Below are positions 14,617 through 24,339 of a stretch of 47,550 nucleotides of DNA, piece by piece. The notes beneath the pieces are model-generated. The model was given only the letters and a program-made list of their open reading frames with translations. It was not told the origin of the DNA and searched no databases. Position 1 is the stretch's first letter. Each line of letters opens with the position of its first letter. Origin of the DNA: Chthonomonadaceae bacterium (GTDB lineage Bacteria > Armatimonadota > Chthonomonadetes > Chthonomonadales > Chthonomonadaceae); contig JANXSG010000108.1 in the NCBI GenBank assembly GCA_025352825.1, positions 1 to 47,550 on the forward strand, written 5' to 3'. Made by a program: the position numbers and the translations under genes.

Positions 14617-16029
14617 TCATCCATGCGCTCTCGAGAAATCTGCTGCGATCTTATGACGAGCTGTCGCTTTGTTCCACTGTTCGCGTACAGCGGCAGGAGA
14701 TGTACCACCACGAGAAGTCCTGGCTCCAACACTGTACTCCACTCGCACGACCGAAAGAACTTCCTGTGGATTCTCGGCAAGATACTGTGAGAGCCCAGGA
14801 AGACTTTCTTGAGAAAGATCTTCCAGACTGATGCCTGCCACTTCGCAGTGACGTACAACTTTTCCAACAATCTCGTGTGCTTCTCGAAATGGAAGCCCTT
14901 TTCGCACTAACAAGTCAGCCAGATCGGTGGCTGTTGAGAAATCTCCACTCGCCGCTTCTCTCATACGCTTTCTGTTAAACTTTGCCGTATACAATGTTTT
15001 CTGAAGAGCGGGTATCACCATATAAAGAGTATCTATCGCATCAAAAATGGGCTCTTTATCTTCCTGCATATCTTTATTATATGCTAGGGGAAGACCCTTC
15101 ATTAGTACAAGAAGGGTGGTTAGGGCTCCATAGACTCTTCCCGTTTTACCACGTACGAGTTCGGCAACATCTGGATTCTTCTTTTGCGGCATGATACTGC
15201 TCCCAGTAGTCACAGTGTCATCTAATTCGACGTATCTGAACTCTGGACTGTTCCATAGTATAATCTCTTCAGCAAACCTGGACAGATGCATCATGATGAT
15301 GCTGCATGCCGATAAAAACTCTATGGCAAAGTCTCGATCTCCCACGGCGTCGAGGCTGTTTTCCAGGATATCGCTAAATTTTAACGAACATGCCACCATG
15401 GCTCTATCTATAGGAAAGCCTGTTCCAGCCAGGGCGCAAGCGCCAAGGGGAAGCCTGTTCACGCGGAAATGTGTGTCGACAAGCCTTTCTCTGTCCCTAT
15501 CGATCATCCAGAAATAGGCTAATAAATGATGCGCCAACACTATCGGTTGTGCATGCTGCAAATGCGTGAAACCTGGTAATATGGTTTCCATCTCACGGTT
15601 AGCTATATCGAGCAGGGTACTCTGAAGCGCTGAAAGCTCTGAATCAATGGTTTTTATAGCAGACCGTAGATACAGCCGGATGTCCGTAGCTATCTGATCG
15701 TTGCGACTTCGAGCGGTATGTAGTTTCCCGGCGACAGTGCCGATCCGCTCACGCAGAAGCCCTTCGATAGCTGTGTGCACATCCTCCGCATCTTCTGGTA
15801 GCAGGCAAGCCCCAGAGCGTATATCTATTTCCAGTTTTTTCAGGCCACCTGTGATCGCTTTAGCATCTGCTGCCGAGATAATTCCGACTGCTCCCAACAT
15901 CTGCGCATGGGCAATACTTCCTTCAATATCTTCCGCCCATAATCTGGAATCAAAGGAAAGCGAGTTATTGAGCCGTTCGATAAGCACATCTGTATGCGCA
16001 TCAAAACGGCTTCCCCAAAGTTTTTGCAA
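14617..16029 (-). CDS. argH: Argininosuccinate lyase
   Basis: The last step of arginine synthesis, splitting argininosuccinate into arginine and fumarate. The 470-aa length is normal for the family. Diagnostic stretches are LWGSRF at the N-terminus, LHTARSRNDQIATD, and the fumarase-superfamily signature GSSIMPQKKNPD. The start is TTG at 16029, with GGGAG 7 nt upstream. It follows argG after a 199-nt gap and is the third gene of the argFGH group. Confidence 0.97.
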   Translation of the reverse strand: MQKLWGSRFDAHTDVLIERLNNSLSFDSRLWAEDIEGSIAHAQMLGAVGIISAADAKAITGGLKKLEIDIRSGACLLPEDAEDVHTAIEGLLRERIGTVAGKLHTARSRNDQIATDIRLYLRSAIKTIDSELSALQSTLLDIANREMETILPGFTHLQHAQPIVLAHHLLAYFWMIDRDRERLVDTHFRVNRLPLGACALAGTGFPIDRAMVACSLKFSDILENSLDAVGDRDFAIEFLSACSIIMMHLSRFAEEIILWNSPEFRYVELDDTVTTGSSIMPQKKNPDVAELVRGKTGRVYGALTTLLVLMKGLPLAYNKDMQEDKEPIFDAIDTLYMVIPALQKTLYTAKFNRKRMREAASGDFSTATDLADLLVRKGLPFREAHEIVGKVVRHCEVAGISLEDLSQESLPGLSQYLAENPQEVLSVVRVEYSVGARTSRGGTSPAAVREQWNKATARHKIAADFSRAHG

Positions 16030-16228: not shown

Positions 16229-17449
16229 CTATTTCATTTTCTGTTTTAATTGCCAGTACATACGAGACTGAAGCCCATGTATCTTGACCATTCCAATCGA
16301 TTCTGCCTGGTCGAAGGTTTTGCTGTCAAAAGACGCCAGGTCTTCATTGTAGAGCGCATAAGGGCTGCTTCTCCCGATAACCACTGCGCTGCCTTTAGCA
16401 AGCCGCATATTTACCGAACCTGTGACACGAGTTTGGATAGAGTTTATAAAAGCTTCGAGGTCTTCCTTGAGAGGATCGAACCAGAGGCCTTTGTAAGCCA
16501 GCTCGCCCCACTCTCTATCCACCATCGACTTAAATTTAAGCTCTCCCTGGGTGCTTACCAACGCTTCTAATGCTTTATGCGCTGCGAGAAGCACCACGGC
16601 AGCTGGGCATTCGTAATTCTCCCGCACTTTTAGCCCCAACATGCGATCTTCCATCACATCGACTCGCCCCACTCCATTTTCACCGGCAATTTTATTCATT
16701 TGCAAAACAAGCTCAAGTGGGGAAAGTATCTTGTCATCAAGCGATACCGGCACCCCATTTTCAAATCCAATTTTCAATGTTTTTGGAGTGTCCGGGCAGT
16801 CTTTCAAGCCGCGAGTCCACTGGAAAATCTCCTCTGGCGGTGCATACCCGGGTTCTTCTAAATGTCCACCTTCAATACTTCTGCCCCACAGGTTTTCGTC
16901 AATACTCCAAATCTTATCTCTCGTTTGCGGGATTTCCACACCGTGAGCTTCGGCATAGTCGATCTCTTCAGTACGCGTCCACGGCTCTCTTGCACCATTC
17001 GGGAGCAGTCTGCCTTCTCGCATGGGGGCGATGATTTCGGCATCAGGCATAAGCGTGCGCATGATATACTCAATCCGAAACTGATCATTACCTTTGCCTG
17101 TACATCCATGTCCAAATGCATTCGCCCCAAGCTCTTTTGCTTTTTCAACAGCTTTTAAAGCGATAAGAGGCCGGGCAATGCTTGTAGAGATTGGGTATCC
17201 CTGATAATCACCGTTCGCTCGAACTGCAGGCCAACAGTACTTCTCAACAAATTCCGCTTTCGCATCAAGAGTGTAGTGCTCTGTATTCAAGCCGCGTGCC
17301 CGTACTTCTGCCTGGCGAATATCTTCGGCTGGCTGCCCAACATCGACTGTAACGGTGATGACATGATCGAAGCCGTACTCCTCTCGCATCAACGGAATGC
17401 AGACGGAGGTGTCTAGACCTCCAGAGTATACTAAAACTATGGTTTGCAT
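16229..17449 (-). CDS. argG: Argininosuccinate synthase
   Basis: Joins citrulline and aspartate with ATP to give argininosuccinate. The 406-aa length is usual for the family. The PP-loop YSGGLDTS lies at residues 8-15, followed by conserved FGHGCTGKGNDQFRIE and the citrulline/aspartate-contacting IARPLIALKAV and REPWTRTEEIDYA regions. The ATG is preceded by AAGGA at 6 nt. It lies 36 nt downstream of argF, so the two are probably co-transcribed. Confidence 0.97.
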   Translation of the reverse strand: MQTIVLVYSGGLDTSVCIPLMREEYGFDHVITVTVDVGQPAEDIRQAEVRARGLNTEHYTLDAKAEFVEKYCWPAVRANGDYQGYPISTSIARPLIALKAVEKAKELGANAFGHGCTGKGNDQFRIEYIMRTLMPDAEIIAPMREGRLLPNGAREPWTRTEEIDYAEAHGVEIPQTRDKIWSIDENLWGRSIEGGHLEEPGYAPPEEIFQWTRGLKDCPDTPKTLKIGFENGVPVSLDDKILSPLELVLQMNKIAGENGVGRVDVMEDRMLGLKVRENYECPAAVVLLAAHKALEALVSTQGELKFKSMVDREWGELAYKGLWFDPLKEDLEAFINSIQTRVTGSVNMRLAKGSAVVIGRSSPYALYNEDLASFDSKTFDQAESIGMVKIHGLQSRMYWQLKQKMK

Positions 17450-17485: not shown

Positions 17486-18463
17486 TTAATATCCCAACAT
17501 CAATGAGATCAGAGCTTTTTGAGTATGGAGTCTGTTTTCCGCCTGATCCATTACAGTTTTGTAATGGATTTGCATCACCTCTGTACTAATCTCTTCACCC
17601 CGATGTGCTGGCAGGCAGTGCAGTACAATCGCATCTGATTTCGCTTTCATCATCAGTTCAGCATTGACCTGATAATTTTTGAATATCTCTGCACGATGCT
17701 CCGATTCGGACTCCTGCCCCATACTCGCCCATACATCCGTATAGACAGCATCCGCGTTTTGCACCGCTTCTGCAGGATCAGTAACGATTGCGACGGCTGC
17801 ACCAGATTCATTATGGCCAATCTCCATGGCTGCACGAACATAATCGCTGTTGGGGAAATAGCCTTCAGGACAAGCTGCCGAAATGGATACTCCCATTTTA
17901 GCACATGCCAATAGCAGGGCGTGAAGCACGTTGTTTCCATCGCCTACGTATGCCAGCTTTAGCTGGTTAGGTGTAATGGGCTTATTCTCAAAAAGCGTCT
18001 GGAGATCAGCAAACGCCTGAATTGGATGCTCTCTATCACTTAACGCATTGATCACAGGGATAGATGCATTTTCTGCGAGTTCTTCAACAGTCTCGTGTCT
18101 AAAAACTCGGGCGGAGATGATATCAACCCATCTCGAAAGCGCTGCAGCTACATCTGCGGTTGATTCCCGGGTTCCAAGGCCTACATCGGAAGCTGCGAGG
18201 TTAATCGCATGACCACCGAGCTGAACCATCCCTGCCTCAAAACTTACGCGCGTGCGCAGTGAAGGTTTTTCAAACAGCATTCCGAGCGTGCGTGGATATT
18301 CCCATTGTTTCCCCGTAGTTCTGGATAAGTGTAGTTTTTTTAATTCAGACGATAATTCGAGAATTTGCTCTATCTGTATCTTAGTCACATCTAGCAGTGT
18401 GACTAGAGACTTACCTCTCCATGAATTAGTCAATTCCATGTTATTGCTATTTACCGAAGGCAC
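17486..18463 (-). CDS. argF: Ornithine carbamoyltransferase
   Basis: Makes citrulline from ornithine and carbamoyl phosphate. The carbamoyl-phosphate loop SLRTR is at residues 68-72. HPIQAFADLQT follows, and the ornithine loop HCLPAHRGEEIS lies near the C-terminus. The length is 325 aa. The GTG at 18463 is preferred because GGAG lies 6 nt upstream; the internal ATG eight codons later has no Shine-Dalgarno. A promoter-like element lies at 18490-18519. It heads the argFGH group, separated from argCJBD by the Clp N-domain gene and a gap with repeats. Confidence 0.96.
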   Translation of the reverse strand: MPSVNSNNMELTNSWRGKSLVTLLDVTKIQIEQILELSSELKKLHLSRTTGKQWEYPRTLGMLFEKPSLRTRVSFEAGMVQLGGHAINLAASDVGLGTRESTADVAAALSRWVDIISARVFRHETVEELAENASIPVINALSDREHPIQAFADLQTLFENKPITPNQLKLAYVGDGNNVLHALLLACAKMGVSISAACPEGYFPNSDYVRAAMEIGHNESGAAVAIVTDPAEAVQNADAVYTDVWASMGQESESEHRAEIFKNYQVNAELMMKAKSDAIVLHCLPAHRGEEISTEVMQIHYKTVMDQAENRLHTQKALISLMLGY

Positions 18464-18489
18464 CAGATACTCCGTTTCCTGTTTAAAAT

Positions 18490-18519
18490 ATAATAATTAC
18501 GCCTATAATGTAATTTCAA
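18490..18519 (-). promoter_or_regulatory. Possible promoter for argFGH
   Basis: On the minus strand TTGAAA (18514-18519) and TATTAT (18490-18495) are separated by 18 nt, 27 nt before the argF start. Confidence 0.45.
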
Positions 18520-18545
18520 AAGCTGGATATACCCGCATATTTCAG

Positions 18546-18590
18546 CCCTCACTTCCTTCCCCCTCTCCCAAAAACAGGAGAGGGGGAAGC
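18546..18590. repeat. Dispersed hairpin repeat, copy 1
   Basis: A 13-bp perfect stem (CTTCCCCCTCTCC at 18556-18568, GGAGAGGGGGAAG at 18577-18589) with loop CAAAAACA is preceded by CCCTCAC. Copies 2 and 3 share the stem core and the same loop. It is a short, non-coding REP-like element. Confidence 0.8.
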
Positions 18591-18687
18591 TTAAAATCGT
18601 TGGTTTCCAGTCTGCCACTTCTTCGGATATGCGCTTATATTTAGCTCAAAAAATTTATATAATGTTGAAAAACCGATGCCTTAGTCA

Positions 18688-18726
18688 CCCCTCTCCTGTT
18701 TTTGGGAGAGGGGCCGGGGGTGAGGG
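18688..18726. repeat. Dispersed hairpin repeat, copy 2 (inverted)
   Basis: CCCCTCTCC (18688-18696) pairs with GGAGAGGGG (18705-18713) around loop TGTTTTTG, the reverse complement of the copy 1 loop, followed by CCGGGGGTGAGGG. It is oriented opposite to copy 1, about 100 nt away, so the pair could also fold into one long structure. Confidence 0.8.
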
Positions 18727-18826
18727 CATGAAGAGTTTTTCAGTTACTTTGGGGTTTTTGCATTTACCGCCAATGTGATGAACATACCGAGTAATCTATG
18801 CAATTCATTCCACCGGGAGGATTGAA

Positions 18827-18970
18827 ATGTATAGCTTACTCGGTGATTTGCAGATGCAACCAAGCAGTTATCAAATGTTGAAATATCAAGATTTCAAAAT
18901 CATAGTATTTTATCAAATATATTTTCGGTATATTGGAATTATATCTTATTCACTCGTAAGAGCCCTATAA
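18827..18970 (+). CDS. Candidate 47-aa small protein
   Basis: An ATG with a strong Shine-Dalgarno (GGGAGG, 6 nt upstream) opens 47 codons ending in TAA at 18970. The C-terminal half is rich in Ile, Tyr and Phe and could be a membrane segment. A 9-bp inverted repeat (ACCGAGTAA at 18786-18794, TTACTCGGT at 18836-18844) brackets the Shine-Dalgarno and start, so the ribosome-binding site would sit in a hairpin loop. There is no homology I recognise. Its end overlaps by 25 nt the possible frameshifted extension of the opposite-strand Clp gene. Confidence 0.3.
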   Translation: MYSLLGDLQMQPSSYQMLKYQDFKIIVFYQIYFRYIGIISYSLVRAL

Positions 18971-19006
18971 TTCTTTATGCACAGCATGTAATCCTGCAGA
19001 ATAGTA

Positions 19007-19534
19007 TCAGGTTCTGCTCCACATTTTCCACATAGAGCTTGTAGATTTTCGGCTAATCATACTTGTTTTTTGCAGAGGCGTATCGATCACATCTGAAACA
19101 AGAAGCTTCCTATCTTCTTCCAGAATAATATTTCTAAGAATTTCTGGAGTAAGGCCGGCTTCCCGCAATACGATACCGCCTAATCCTTCTTCTTCCATGA
19201 TCAAACCGAGCATAATATGACGCGAGTCCAAATCTTTATGTCCGAGATCAAGCATCTGCTCTCCTGCTAAAGCCATCACATGCTGTGCTCTTGGAGTTAA
19301 TTTCAGATTCTCTTCCGGATCATGATGACCTTTTGAACACTGTTTTTTGCAAGTCTCACTCAACTGTCGGCAATCGAAACCGTTCTCCCTGAGAATTTTT
19401 GTAGCGGAGTTTGTATGTTTCAGAAGCCCCAGAAGAAGATATTCCGTATGAACGAACCTATGGTTGTACTTGCCCGCGTATTCCTTCGCATCGAAAAGTA
19501 ACTGTTTTACACCCTGGCTTTGTATTGGACGCAT
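19007..19534 (-). CDS. Stand-alone Clp N-terminal domain protein
   Basis: A 175-aa protein consisting of the double Clp_N (ClpC/ClpB N-terminal) repeat with no AAA+ module. The first repeat is at about residues 5-70 (AKEYAGKYNHRFVHTEYLLLGLLK) and the second at 80-140 (LTPRAQHVMALAGEQMLDLGHKDLDSRHIMLGLI). Such proteins may act as adaptors or substrate-binding partners for Clp proteases. The ATG has GAGG 7 nt upstream. The last 15 or so residues look out of frame: one frame over, the sequence reads LAENLQALCGKCGAEPDTIL with a CxxC motif and continues to a TAA at 18946. A base insertion near 19050 is therefore suspected. It lies downstream of argD, probably in the same transcript. Confidence 0.85.
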   Translation of the reverse strand: MRPIQSQGVKQLLFDAKEYAGKYNHRFVHTEYLLLGLLKHTNSATKILRENGFDCRQLSETCKKQCSKGHHDPEENLKLTPRAQHVMALAGEQMLDLGHKDLDSRHIMLGLIMEEEGLGGIVLREAGLTPEILRNIILEEDRKLLVSDVIDTPLQKTSMISRKSTSSMWKMWSRT

Positions 19535-19602: not shown

Positions 19603-20808
19603 CTACTGTGCCAGAACCATTTGAAATGCTTTTAGAAACTGGTCACAGTCCGCTGTTGTTATGTTAAGTGGTGGCAGAAGCCTTATTATGCTCTCACCAA
19701 CCGCATTAGCTACCACGCCTGCATGAAGTAACTCCTGAACTAGCTGCCTTGCGTTATTTTTAGCAAGTTCGATACCGATCATTAGCCCATATCCGCGAAT
19801 TTCGGTGATATGACCGGTATAATCCCGTTGAATTACCTGCAGATGTTCTTTCAGATAATTTCCGATTGTGATGGCATTTTCTAAAAGATGCTCCTCTTCG
19901 AGCACATCCAGAGTTGCCATCGCGGCTGCACACGCTAATGGCTGCCCGGCAAATGTGGACCCATGATCACCCGGTACCAATACGTTCGCTGCATCACCTC
20001 GAGCAAGGCATGCTCCCATTGGGAAACCATCTGCAATCCCTTTAGCCAGCGTGACGATATCACCGGTTATACCTGCACGCTGGCTTGCGAGAAATCTTCC
20101 TGTTCGCCCCATCCCGCACTGTACCTCATCCAAAATAAGCAGCACTTCTGCTTCAGTGCATAGTGCTTGAATACCCTGAAGGAATTCAGGGGATGCGGGC
20201 TTCACACCGCTCTCTCCCTGTATGGGCTCGATCATCACAGCGCACGTTTGTTCTGTGATAAGCTCGTCCAAAGCAGCAAGATCATTTAGCGGAGAGTATA
20301 TGAAGCCGGGAACCAGGGGTTCGAACGGCGTTTGATATTTAGACTGCGCGGTAGCAGTTACTGTTCCCATAGTTCGACCATGAAATGAGCCTTGGAAGGT
20401 GATTATCTCAAAACAATCGAGTCCACGTTTCTTTTTGCCCCATTTTCTGGCAATTTTAAGGGCACATTCATTCGCTTCTGCACCCGAATTACAGAAAAAA
20501 ACCTTGTCCATTCTAGCAAGAGCGTTCAGTCTGGCAGCGAGTCTCGCCTGCAGTGGGTTATGAAACAAATTGCTGACATGCATAAGTGTCTTCGCCTGGT
20601 TTGCGATGGCTTCGGCAACTTTGGGGTGGCAATGACCAACCTGAACCACAGAGATTCCACTCAGAAAATCGAGATACTCGTTTCCGTTGCTATCCCATAA
20701 ACACGAACCTTCCCCACGAACGAAAACAATCGGCTGGCGGGCGTATGTTCCCATCACATTTTCGACGTCAAGTTTTTCAATCTGTTCAGAATTTAGTAAA
20801 TTATCCAT
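19603..20808 (-). CDS. argD: Acetylornithine aminotransferase
   Basis: A PLP-dependent class-III aminotransferase that converts N-acetylglutamate semialdehyde to N-acetylornithine. It is 401 aa. Conserved parts are the N-terminal GEGSCLWDSNGNEYLDFLSG, FFCNSGAEANECALKIAR (cofactor phosphate site), LILDEVQCGMGRTG, and the PLP lysine in TLAKGIADGFPMGAC. Placement between argB and the rest of the pathway supports ArgD over other class-III aminotransferases, though such enzymes can also act on succinyl-diaminopimelate. Confidence 0.95.
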   Translation of the reverse strand: MDNLLNSEQIEKLDVENVMGTYARQPIVFVRGEGSCLWDSNGNEYLDFLSGISVVQVGHCHPKVAEAIANQAKTLMHVSNLFHNPLQARLAARLNALARMDKVFFCNSGAEANECALKIARKWGKKKRGLDCFEIITFQGSFHGRTMGTVTATAQSKYQTPFEPLVPGFIYSPLNDLAALDELITEQTCAVMIEPIQGESGVKPASPEFLQGIQALCTEAEVLLILDEVQCGMGRTGRFLASQRAGITGDIVTLAKGIADGFPMGACLARGDAANVLVPGDHGSTFAGQPLACAAAMATLDVLEEEHLLENAITIGNYLKEHLQVIQRDYTGHITEIRGYGLMIGIELAKNNARQLVQELLHAGVVANAVGESIIRLLPPLNITTADCDQFLKAFQMVLAQ

Positions 20809-20851: not shown

Positions 20852-21718
20852 CTATGCTCGAAGCATAGTTCCGATGCCCGAATCGGTAAATATTTCAATT
20901 AAAAGTGTATGCGGAATTCTGCCATCGATTAGATGTGCCCGTTCCACACCACCCTCTACAGCTTTGATGCATGCTTCTAGTTTGGGTATCATTCCACGGT
21001 CTGCCGCACCGGAAGCAATCAATTGAAGCGCTTGTTCCACGTTCATCTCTTTGATAATGCTTGACTTATCTGGATAGTCTGCATATAGACCTTCGACATC
21101 GGTAAGTACCACAAGTTTGCAAGCGCCTACTTTGGCAGCGATATGGCCTGCCGCGTGATCTGCGTTTACATTGTAGCTGTTTCCATCTTTGCCTATTGCG
21201 ACTGAGGATATCACAGGAACATATCCCTCGGTACTTAGTAGATTCAAAATATCTGCGTTGATCTCATCTATCTCCCCAACAAACCCTAAATCCCCCAGGT
21301 CAGATTTCATTTTTGTGGCAACAATGAGGTTGGCATCCTTCCCGCTCAGACCCACCGCTTTTGCGCCTTGTTGATTCAAAAGGGCAACGATATTCTTGTT
21401 TGTTTTCCCGGTAAGTGCCATCTCCACGATTTCCATGGTGGTGGCATCGGTAACGCGGAACCCGCCCAGAAAAGAGGGTTCATGACCCATCTGCTTCATA
21501 AGCGCATTTATTTCTGGGCCACCGCCGTGCACTAGAATCGGGTGAATTCCGACATAGTGCAACAATGCAATATCCTGCATCACCTGCGATTTCAAAGACT
21601 CGTCTATCATGGCGTTTCCACCATACTTAACGACGATTGTCTTTCCATAGAATTTGCGCAAGTATGGAAGGGCTTCGATCAAAACTGCCGCTTGAGTCTC
21701 TGGATCTCTAATGCTCAT
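20852..21718 (-). CDS. argB: Acetylglutamate kinase
   Basis: Phosphorylates N-acetylglutamate, usually the regulated step of the cyclic arginine pathway. It is 288 aa. The ATP/substrate motifs are IVVKYGGNAM, ILVHGGGPEIN and VGLSGKDANLI, followed by VTDVEGLY near the nucleotide site. An N-terminal helix (ETQAAVLIEALPYLRKFYGKTIVVKYGG) resembles the one that makes arginine-sensitive hexamers, so feedback inhibition by arginine is likely but not proven. Confidence 0.96.
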   Translation of the reverse strand: MSIRDPETQAAVLIEALPYLRKFYGKTIVVKYGGNAMIDESLKSQVMQDIALLHYVGIHPILVHGGGPEINALMKQMGHEPSFLGGFRVTDATTMEIVEMALTGKTNKNIVALLNQQGAKAVGLSGKDANLIVATKMKSDLGDLGFVGEIDEINADILNLLSTEGYVPVISSVAIGKDGNSYNVNADHAAGHIAAKVGACKLVVLTDVEGLYADYPDKSSIIKEMNVEQALQLIASGAADRGMIPKLEACIKAVEGGVERAHLIDGRIPHTLLIEIFTDSGIGTMLRA

Positions 21719-21751: not shown

Positions 21752-22975
21752 TTATGTGTGGTACTCTGCGTTTATCTTGATATAGTCGTAGCTATAATCG
21801 CATGTCCAGAAAGTGGCACTGTCTTCACCCATGTTCATATCGAGTGTGATTACAACCTCATTCTGAGTGAGGTAGTCGTGAGCAGCGTCTCTATTGAAGG
21901 ATATACTGCCACCATTCTCACACACAAGATGATCTCCAATCGAGACTGATATTCTGTTCGGGTCGAGCGGAGCTCCGGATTTTCCTGCAGCCATCAGCAC
22001 TCTCCCCCAGTTCGGGTCGTTGCCAAAGAGTGCCGTTTTAACCAGAGGCGATTCCGCGACAGATTTAGCTATCTGGTGTGCAGCCAACTTGGTAGCTGCA
22101 TTCAGAACTCGAATCTCCACAAGTTTGGTGGCTCCTTCGCCATCACGGGCGATCTCCTTTGCAAGAGACACGCACAACCTTGTCAGCGCTTCCACAAAAT
22201 CTTCGAATGCCGATCCCTGACGTGTTATTTCTGCATGTCCCATTCCAGAAGCCAGAAGCAGACACATGTCGTTTGTGCTAGTGTCTCCATCCACAGTAAC
22301 CCTGTTAAACGAGGCATTTGCGGCACGAGATATCGCCTCCTGCAACAGAGGTGCAGGCAATCGTGCATCTGTCGTGATGAAGGCTAGCATGGTCGCCATA
22401 TTCGGGGCGATCATCCCGGAGCCTTTGCACATCCCGCCAAACCGAATAGGGCCAACCCAGTTATCGGAATCTACTTCCACGGCCCGGAGTTTTGGATAGG
22501 TATCCGTGGTCATGATTGCCCGAGCAGATGCCATGTCTGAATTAGAGTCGCGCTCCAGCCTATCGACCACATTTATAATTCCCTCTTGAAGTCTATCCAT
22601 AGGCAGCAAGTGGCCAATTATTCCTGTGGATGCTATCAGGACACTGTCCGGTGGAACATGGAGGCGTCTGCTCACCCACTCGGCAAGGTTTCTGTTATCT
22701 GCTTCTCCTTGATCTCCATTACAGGCGTTTGCATTTCCAGCATTAATTAGTACCGCTCGTGCCATGCCCCCTTTTACTACTCGGTTGGAATATTTCACAC
22801 ACGGCGCCTGTACACGATTAGTAGTGAAAACACCTGCTGCAACCGCTGCACTATCGCTTACAAAAAGGGTAAGATCATCACCTGCTGTTTTGAGACCGCA
22901 TCGCACGGAGGCAATTACAAATCCTTCCGGGAAAGTAATACCCGCCTCGTTCTCTTCTTTCCAAACTTTTATCAT
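21752..22975 (-). CDS. argJ: Bifunctional glutamate N-acetyltransferase/ornithine acetyltransferase
   Basis: Transfers the acetyl group from N-acetylornithine to glutamate, closing the acetyl cycle. It is 407 aa. The autocleavage site Ala-Thr lies in MIAPNMATMLAFITTDA, where the Thr becomes the nucleophile at the start of the beta chain. Other conserved parts are LINAGNANACNG and the C-terminal FGNDPNWGRVLMAAG. Whether it also uses acetyl-CoA cannot be told from sequence, but no argA or argE is present in the cluster, which favours a bifunctional enzyme. It lies 18 nt after argC. Confidence 0.96.
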   Translation of the reverse strand: MIKVWKEENEAGITFPEGFVIASVRCGLKTAGDDLTLFVSDSAAVAAGVFTTNRVQAPCVKYSNRVVKGGMARAVLINAGNANACNGDQGEADNRNLAEWVSRRLHVPPDSVLIASTGIIGHLLPMDRLQEGIINVVDRLERDSNSDMASARAIMTTDTYPKLRAVEVDSDNWVGPIRFGGMCKGSGMIAPNMATMLAFITTDARLPAPLLQEAISRAANASFNRVTVDGDTSTNDMCLLLASGMGHAEITRQGSAFEDFVEALTRLCVSLAKEIARDGEGATKLVEIRVLNAATKLAAHQIAKSVAESPLVKTALFGNDPNWGRVLMAAGKSGAPLDPNRISVSIGDHLVCENGGSISFNRDAAHDYLTQNEVVITLDMNMGEDSATFWTCDYSYDYIKINAEYHT

Positions 22976-22993: not shown

Positions 22994-24040
22994 CTATGGC
23001 CAGATACCGCCACAGTCTATCAATGCGGCAGTCTCATCAAAACCGAACATTAAATTCATATTTTGCACTGCCTGGCCAGCTGCGCCTTTTACCAGATTAT
23101 CGATGGCGGATACCACAGTAATCCGCTGATTCCGGGTATCGAATGCCATTCCGATATGGCATCGGTTGCTGCCAAGCGTATGCTTAGTAGCTGGAAGCGA
23201 ATCTGGCAGAATAGTGACAAATGGTTCTGTTTTGTAGAAATCAGCGTACTGTTCATATAGTTCACTCGGTGAGAAATTTCTCAAAGCATTTGCATAACAG
23301 GTTGCTAAAATTCCTCGCGACATCGGGATCAGATGTGGAGTAAATGTGATTACCGATTTAATTCCAGTAATTTCAGAAATTATCGACTCTATTTCTGGCG
23401 TGTGCCTATGTGTTCCGGCTATTTTATAAGCACTCACACTTTCATTTATCTCAGGATAATGGTAGTCCAGAGAGAATTTTGCTCGTCCAACTCCAGAAAC
23501 ACCTGATTTAGCGTCTATCACAACTGTTTTTGGGTCAATCATCTCTGCCTTGAGCAAAGGTGCCAGTGCTAAAATGGATGCGGTGGGATAGCATCCGGGA
23601 TTACCCACCAGTCGGCTTTCTTTGATTTCCGATCTGTGTAGCTCAGGGAGGCCATAGACGGCAGTCTGATTCTCCAGTGGGCATGAATGTTGCATTTTAT
23701 ACCACTCAGGATATATCTCGATGTCACGGAAACGAAAATCTGCTGAGAGATCTACTACTTTACAACCGGCGGCTAACAGATCCGGCACGATTTTCATAGC
23801 TCTGCCATTTTCTTGAGCCAGAAAAACCATCTCACACGCTTTCAAAGCGGACATATTTCCAAGTGACTGGAATTGGAGATTGCTCATCCCATACAGTCCT
23901 GGAAAGGCTGCGTGCATAGGCTTTCCAGAATAAGTTTCAGAAATTGCAACCGTAAGATTAACGAAGGGATGCCTCAACAATATTCTTATTAGTTCCCCGC
24001 CGCCATATCCCGAAGCGCCTACAACTGCCACATTTAACAT
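22994..24040 (-). CDS. argC: N-acetyl-gamma-glutamyl-phosphate reductase
   Basis: An NADPH-dependent reductase that makes N-acetylglutamate semialdehyde. It is 348 aa. The Rossmann motif VVGASGYGGGELIRIL is at the N-terminus and the catalytic Cys lies in VGNPGCYPTASILAL. GVSGVGRAK and GTHRHTPEIE are typical of the long ArgC type. The ATG is preceded by AGGA at 8 nt. It is the first gene of the arg operon, behind a long leader with a hairpin terminator. Confidence 0.97.
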   Translation of the reverse strand: MLNVAVVGASGYGGGELIRILLRHPFVNLTVAISETYSGKPMHAAFPGLYGMSNLQFQSLGNMSALKACEMVFLAQENGRAMKIVPDLLAAGCKVVDLSADFRFRDIEIYPEWYKMQHSCPLENQTAVYGLPELHRSEIKESRLVGNPGCYPTASILALAPLLKAEMIDPKTVVIDAKSGVSGVGRAKFSLDYHYPEINESVSAYKIAGTHRHTPEIESIISEITGIKSVITFTPHLIPMSRGILATCYANALRNFSPSELYEQYADFYKTEPFVTILPDSLPATKHTLGSNRCHIGMAFDTRNQRITVVSAIDNLVKGAAGQAVQNMNLMFGFDETAALIDCGGIWP

Positions 24041-24103
24041 AGTACCGATCCTTAATTCAATTCCACTGATTTACTTTTTCATTCAGATTAAAAAAAACAA
24101 AAG

Positions 24104-24143
24104 GAGCCGTGGGGCATCTGGCTTGAGATAGTACCCACGGCTC
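24104..24143 (-). terminator. Intrinsic terminator in the argC leader (attenuator candidate)
   Basis: On the minus strand a perfect 10-bp stem (GAGCCGTGGG / CCCACGGCTC, 20-nt loop) is followed directly by CCTTTTGTTTTTTTT. It is a strong intrinsic terminator pointing toward argC, 63 nt before its start and after the only good promoter. An upstream CCCACG (minus strand, 24175-24180) could pair with the CGTGGG of the first arm and form an antiterminator. Confidence 0.7.
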
Positions 24144-24294
24144 TCTGAAAAAATTAAATACATGGCAATACGTACGTGGGCTATTTGTGATAATGCTCAC
24201 GACGGGGGCGGAAACTATTATTCTGGAACGAATATTTAACTTGAAAGATCATCAAGTAGGTGTGTCCAACCAATAAGTAAGATATAGAAGGAAC

Positions 24295-24323
24295 ATAATA
24301 CCTCCATTAAATGAAGATGTCAA
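24295..24323 (-). promoter_or_regulatory. Consensus promoter for the arg operon
   Basis: On the minus strand TTGACA (24318-24323) and TATTAT (24295-24300) are spaced by exactly 17 nt. Transcription would begin near 24288, giving a leader of about 250 nt before argC. Confidence 0.75.
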
Positions 24324-24339
24324 TGACTTTCTATTAAAA

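Follow-up and report, generated by a model that had tools for sequence, protein, structure and literature searches.

The locus described here raises the question of how an arginine operon is controlled when an intrinsic terminator lies between its promoter and its first gene. Attenuation is the textbook control of several amino acid pathways, and arginine synthesis in bacteria is usually ascribed to ArgR or to T-boxes; repression by ArgR/AhrC is one of the usual arginine-responsive controls of arg genes in other bacteria. The operon is found in a stretch of 47,550 nucleotides from a Chthonomonadaceae bacterium (phylum Armatimonadota), hereafter called the window, and its genes lie on the minus strand. 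The first gene of the controlled operon is argC (22994-24040), which matches TIGR01850 with 432.7 bits against a cut-off of 233.6, and it is followed on the same strand, with short gaps, by argJ (21752-22975), argB (20852-21718) and argD (19603-20808), each identified by an NCBIfam model over its cut-off. Further downstream, also on the minus strand, are argF (17486-18463), argG (16229-17449) and argH (14617-16029); argF is preceded by a gap of about 540 nt, which makes their co-transcription with argC uncertain, and these genes may have a promoter of their own. In that gap (18464-19006, minus strand) there are an inverted repeat, CCCTCACCCCCGGCCCCTCTCCCAAAAACAGGAGAGGGG ... CCCCCTCTCCTGTTTTTGGGAGAGGG, and a promoter-like TTGAAA/TATTAT at 18519-18490. 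Between argD and argF a protein of 175 amino acids is encoded (19007-19534, minus strand), whose only Pfam match is Clp_N and which has no ATPase domain. The gene upstream of the arg leader is gspE, in divergent orientation.

The argC leader runs on the minus strand from about 24288 to 24041. It is preceded by a sigma-70-type promoter, TTGACA-N17-TATTAT (24323-24295, with TTGACA at 24323-24318 and TATTAT at 24300-24295), which an earlier note on this DNA had already placed correctly. This promoter agrees with the consensus at 11 of 12 positions and is the top promoter-like site on both strands between 14 and 28 kb; the transcript is expected to start near 24288. The 14-codon frame that had been reported at the promoter exists, and its start would precede the transcript. 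It had also been stated that no arginine-codon-rich leader peptide was present, and this has to be corrected. The open reading frame (ORF) at 24252-24181 encodes the leader peptide MIFQVKYSFQNNSFRPRREHYHK, which contains RPRRE, aligned with RRRRE in the relatives. Its control codons CGC CCC CGT CGT (Arg Pro Arg Arg; 24210-24199), followed by GAG (Glu), align with CGN CGN CGN CGN GAR in those leaders; with arginine at three of the four control codons, the window peptide has fewer than most relatives. The start codon is uncertain: besides the ATG at 24252, the in-frame TTG codons at 24255 and 24273 are possible starts, and the Shine-Dalgarno sequence is weak (GGA about 12 nt 5' of the ATG).

Four RNA segments can be distinguished in this leader. 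Segment 1 (CGTCGTG, 24204-24198) overlaps the arginine codons and pairs with CACG(T)ACG at 24178-24171 in the ribosome-free fold, from which its putative function is deduced. The stop codon of the ORF directly abuts CCCACG, so that the first base of segment 2, the antiterminator half (GCCCACG, 24181-24175), is the last base of the TAG. Segment 2 pairs with 24139-24134, and equivalent pairing is found in the relatives. These positions lie in segment 3 (GAGCCGTGGG, 24143-24134), which is both the 5' arm of the terminator and the antiterminator partner. Segment 4 (CCCACGGCTC, 24113-24104), the 3' arm, is its perfect 10-bp complement, and the T-tract CTTTTGTTTTTTTT (24103-24090) comes next. The hairpin, with a loop of 20 nt, and the CCCACG at 24180-24175 are both where they had been described. 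No other perfect stem of at least 8 bp with such a T-tract exists on the two strands of the 47.5-kb window, and when the window leader was shuffled 3000 times with dinucleotides preserved, a stem of at least 9 bp with a T-tract appeared only twice. One terminator scan missed the hairpin solely because of the scan's loop maximum of 8 nt.

Relatives were found by an ArgC search of 17 genomes of the same family, and their argC leaders were then read. ORFs with a run of arginine codons were present in G016 (MQAVFVTANLVSRSRRRRERLGN), G003 (MQAGFAIAIYCVSRRRRESFGI), G012 (MQAGFAIANLSARSRRRRERFGI), G009 (MSFISTANFTNRRRERTGK), G013 (MKSMDQFKINRRRRERIGL), G005 (MNTIRFSANRRRREEIGL) and G007 (MRSTGLAVMPEKRLRRERTDSTLMTTLR), and a more divergent member with an arginine run occurs in G006 (LKLFLPNLSSGLRRRERRL). 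The peptides of this type, referred to as class A, carry RRRRE, RRRE or RRRVR, to which RPRRE corresponds in the window. The antiterminator half (CCCACG, CCCGC or CCCCGCG) follows directly after the stop codon in the window and six family relatives, and in G007 it is found just before the stop codon as GACCACG. The shared order is promoter, short arginine ORF, antiterminator half shortly after it, terminator and argC. A whole-leader DNA similarity search in the relatives gave nothing useful, as the element is conserved in its architecture and long sequence identity is absent. In the 14 relatives that make up every class A leader inspected, a TTGACA/TATAAT-like promoter lies directly 5' of the leader ORF. 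In the leader ORFs of family f24 (L129-L132, L139, L140 and L210) the ATG follows the -10 box at a distance of about 10 nt, and these upstream ORFs may therefore be leaderless.

The arginine codons show the signature of a coding sequence. Among 11 aligned leaders, the first and second positions of the Arg-Arg-Glu codons are invariant, and the third positions are T, C or A in the arginine codons and G or A in the glutamate codon. An ORF with such an arginine cluster arises in 3% of shuffled window leaders. Across the phylum, such an ORF together with a terminator lies in the last 400 nt before argC in 17 of 90 leaders, against 0.43 in shuffles (maximum 2); in the family alone the figures were 6 of 14 leaders against 0.04 expected. 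Among 79 argC loci of other phyla there were four matches to an arginine-rich ORF: three resemble the C-terminus of rpsI followed by its terminator, and the fourth is a short frame without special features (LRRCRLIWTGNMDWSNS). In the family, leuA was also checked for a preceding leucine leader, and none was found.

A covariance model of class A (R1) run on 291 genomes gave 15 positives at 60-101 bits (E < 1e-10), confined to families f1, f3 and f24, with a single copy in each genome, in every case upstream of argC. G081, which was outside the training set of R1, scored 65.7 bits. In this genome (L210) a gene for a GNAT-like acetyltransferase stands between the attenuator and argC, and a step like that of N-acetylglutamate synthase is possibly under the same control. 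A model built without the window (R3) had the window as its only hit, with 35.4 bits and an E value of 7.5e-7. A laxer R1 run on 31 genomes of the order yielded no further clear copy, and the class A model scored no higher than 24.8 bits in 32 genomes of other phyla, compared with 60-101 for true members. Within the phylum, R1 also gave weak matches of 20-25 bits (G029, G230, G286 and others), which were put down to chance. Five family members (G002, G001, G008, G010 and G011) do not have the element, and arginine control in the family can therefore do without it. As read from sequence and comparison, promoter, ORF, arginine codons, terminator, alternative pairing and placement before argC are all seen in three families.

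The alternative pairing was analysed in 15 leaders, with segments assigned by hand because an automated picker took a second, downstream hairpin in several relatives. In each leader the stretch from the arginine run to the terminator pairs with the 5' arm of the terminator beyond dinucleotide shuffles, although weakly (p 0.03-0.24); the joint Fisher p of 1.3e-6 is optimistic, since some leaders are closely related and not independent. In the alignment, 95% of the antiterminator cells and 90% of the terminator cells pair, against 30-55% when the partners are slid. Changes on both sides of a pair are rare, with 2 compensatory cells in the short antiterminator, for which chance is not rejected by shuffling columns alone. 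The antiterminator helix is retained with different bases in G006 (TCTCGCG/CGCGAGA) and with a changed pair in G082 (GTCC/GGAC). The folds of the window point in the same direction. With a ribosome on any of the three arginine codons, segment 2 pairs with segment 3 ahead of the synthesis of segment 4 (-11.4 kcal/mol). A ribosome at the stop codon leaves the terminator as the sole structure, and in the ribosome-free RNA the terminator forms alongside a helix of segments 1 and 2. These predicted folds correspond to the three states known from classical attenuators, and geometry and folds agree in the prediction that a ribosome on the control codons frees segment 2 and one at the stop codon covers it. 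The proposals of conditional termination in the arg leader, and of CCCACG as partner of the first arm of the terminator, thus gain support from the pairing in relatives, compared with shuffles, and from the folds. The earlier note had regarded a transcript starting downstream of 24104, or a hairpin without covariation, as evidence against its reading, and both points turn out in its favour: the relatives carry a consensus promoter directly 5' of the leader ORF, and in them the hairpin is kept with some compensatory change.

The best explanation, held with high though not complete confidence, is that the leader acts as a ribosome-mediated transcription attenuator specific for arginine, which would sense the supply of Arg-tRNA. 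RNA polymerase would initiate near 24288 and the leader peptide would be translated by a ribosome. When Arg-tRNA is plentiful, the ribosome would clear the arginine codons and reach the stop codon abutting segment 2, which would then be covered or, after release of the ribosome, refolded with segment 1; with segment 2 unavailable, segments 3 and 4 would form the terminator and transcription would end before argC. When Arg-tRNA runs short, the ribosome would stall on CGC, CGT or CGT, covering segment 1 and leaving segment 2 free to pair with segment 3 while segment 4 has yet to be transcribed, so that no terminator would form and argC and the genes beyond it would be transcribed. If the leader is not translated, pairing of segments 1 and 2 would leave the terminator to form, which is known as super-attenuation. 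The scheme would predict that the leader ORF is translated, that ribosomes stall on it, that transcription terminates in vivo and that a shortage of arginine induces the operon.

The scheme resembles the attenuators of the trp, his, leu, thr, ilv and phe genes of proteobacteria and actinobacteria, which have a short leader ORF with clustered codons for the regulatory amino acid, four RNA segments with mutually exclusive antiterminator and terminator, and the terminator before the first biosynthetic gene. In the argC leaders, codons for the end product are clustered in a short ORF (RPRRE in the window, its counterparts in the relatives, and variation limited to wobble positions), an intrinsic terminator separates that ORF from the first structural gene, and a mutually exclusive antiterminator, with few compensatory changes, lies just past the control codons. 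On every feature that sequence can address, the element appears to belong to the ribosome-mediated attenuators, with arginine as the amino acid sensed. It differs from the systems mentioned in that the amino acid is arginine and the host phylum Armatimonadota, and the likeness described here is one of architecture.

Other explanations of the leader have to be weighed against this attenuator. A stalled ribosome could also result from an arrest peptide that senses free arginine in the ribosome tunnel instead of waiting for Arg-tRNA, as TnaC does with tryptophan and the fungal arginine attenuator peptide (AAP) with arginine. The AAP is an arginine-responsive upstream peptide on a gene of the arginine pathway, and it acts by nascent-peptide arrest with free arginine, as eukaryotic translational control with no terminator; it shares with the argC leader the link of an upstream peptide to arginine, and differs in having no terminator. 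The conservation of the RRRRE/RRRVR motif and the position of RARR at or next to the stop codon in the second leader class described below would suit arrest. However, the class A peptides share little beyond the arginine run and the glutamate, base pairing may be a further constraint on the codons of both, and the 18 nt from the last arginine codon to segment 2 in the window fit codon stalling, so that a peptide sensor seems improbable.

Still less probable is a metabolite riboswitch or a protein-binding antiterminator that controls the terminator while the ORF is incidental. The two halves of terminator and antiterminator do exist independently of the ORF, and a novel RNA element or a protein was the controller proposed in the earlier note; but that proposal lacks support now that an arginine leader peptide is present. 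The region between ORF and terminator varies in length and sequence and has no conserved aptamer-like core, the arginine codons carry a coding signature, and there is no Rfam match. The leader could in any case yield a terminated RNA of about 200 nt, and the hairpin might simply terminate either a separate small RNA or transcripts arriving from upstream, with no connection to arginine. This is hardly credible, because the model searches place the element nowhere but upstream of argC, the arginine codons are conserved, and the divergent orientation of gspE leaves no upstream transcript to be ended.

In families f11, f22 and f43 and, by eye, also in f42, f44 and f45, the leader ORF before argC is of another type and has RARR at or near its end. 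Examples of these class B peptides are MHTSCDLMWRNKTSLRARR, MPPTAGRLWPMTDSLRARR and MTIVFLIAKTRVRRR; the ORF is followed by AGGCAT and then by the terminator ATGCCGCCC...GGGCGGC (L220-L231, L252-L267). A model of this class (R2) found 17 copies in 16 genomes. Four held-out matches (G052, G258, G259 and G260) all have argC downstream, and RARR is encoded in the three of them whose leader was recovered. Unlike class A, the arginine codons of class B are at or next to the stop codon, and a different stalling step may be involved. A second terminator-like hairpin, GCCGC-N-GG...CC-NN-GCGGC plus T, lies between the attenuator and argC, immediately ahead of the gene, in 10 of 111 leaders (L022, L024, L030, L031, L033, L120, L126, L123, L145 and L237), where about 0.75 would be expected; it is present even in G010, which has no leader peptide, and is missing from the window.

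The usual regulators of arginine synthesis were also sought. The C-terminal domain of ArgR (PF02863) was found in none of 61 genomes of the phylum and the N-terminal domain (PF01316) was never over cut-off in them, so that no homologue of ArgR/AhrC was detected there; as controls, the search found ArgR in 8-9 of 14 named genomes. Arginine T-boxes control arg genes in other bacteria (PMC1262725). In the window, no T-box match was obtained with Rfam at the gathering threshold and none was among the weak matches of the leader, in line with the absence of a T-box signature noted before; at gathering and relaxed thresholds alike, Rfam gave no meaningful match to the leader. The balance is even on whether this phylum as a whole, where ArgR is not detectable, controls arginine synthesis by leader-peptide attenuation with at least two leader classes (A, RRRRE and then the antiterminator; B, C-terminal RARR with its own terminator) of separate origin at the same gene.

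The kind of mechanism is known, and in the open-access literature searched no precedent was found for an arginine-specific attenuator of arginine biosynthesis in bacteria, which by itself does not establish novelty. A survey of actinobacteria describes no RNA element before the arginine operons there and lists arginine T-boxes elsewhere (PMC1262725). Arginine is not mentioned in a 2010 survey of premature terminators (PMC2965389) or in two large surveys of non-coding RNA (PMC11109978, PMC6429828); a third names it only regarding a carA motif, and reports an Arg-Leu-Arg upstream ORF mainly upstream of hflX (PMC8632094). The speF leader ORF of Salmonella is likewise tied to arginine supply and differs in controlling ornithine decarboxylase (PMC6386406). 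The arginine-linked leader ORF rbfL of S. aureus controls the biofilm regulator rbf, at translation initiation, through blockage of the downstream ribosome-binding site (PMC13009471).

An arginine attenuator at argC would fill the control slot in a phylum without detectable ArgR. It would give this little-studied phylum a concrete regulator and exemplify leader peptides replacing a repressor.
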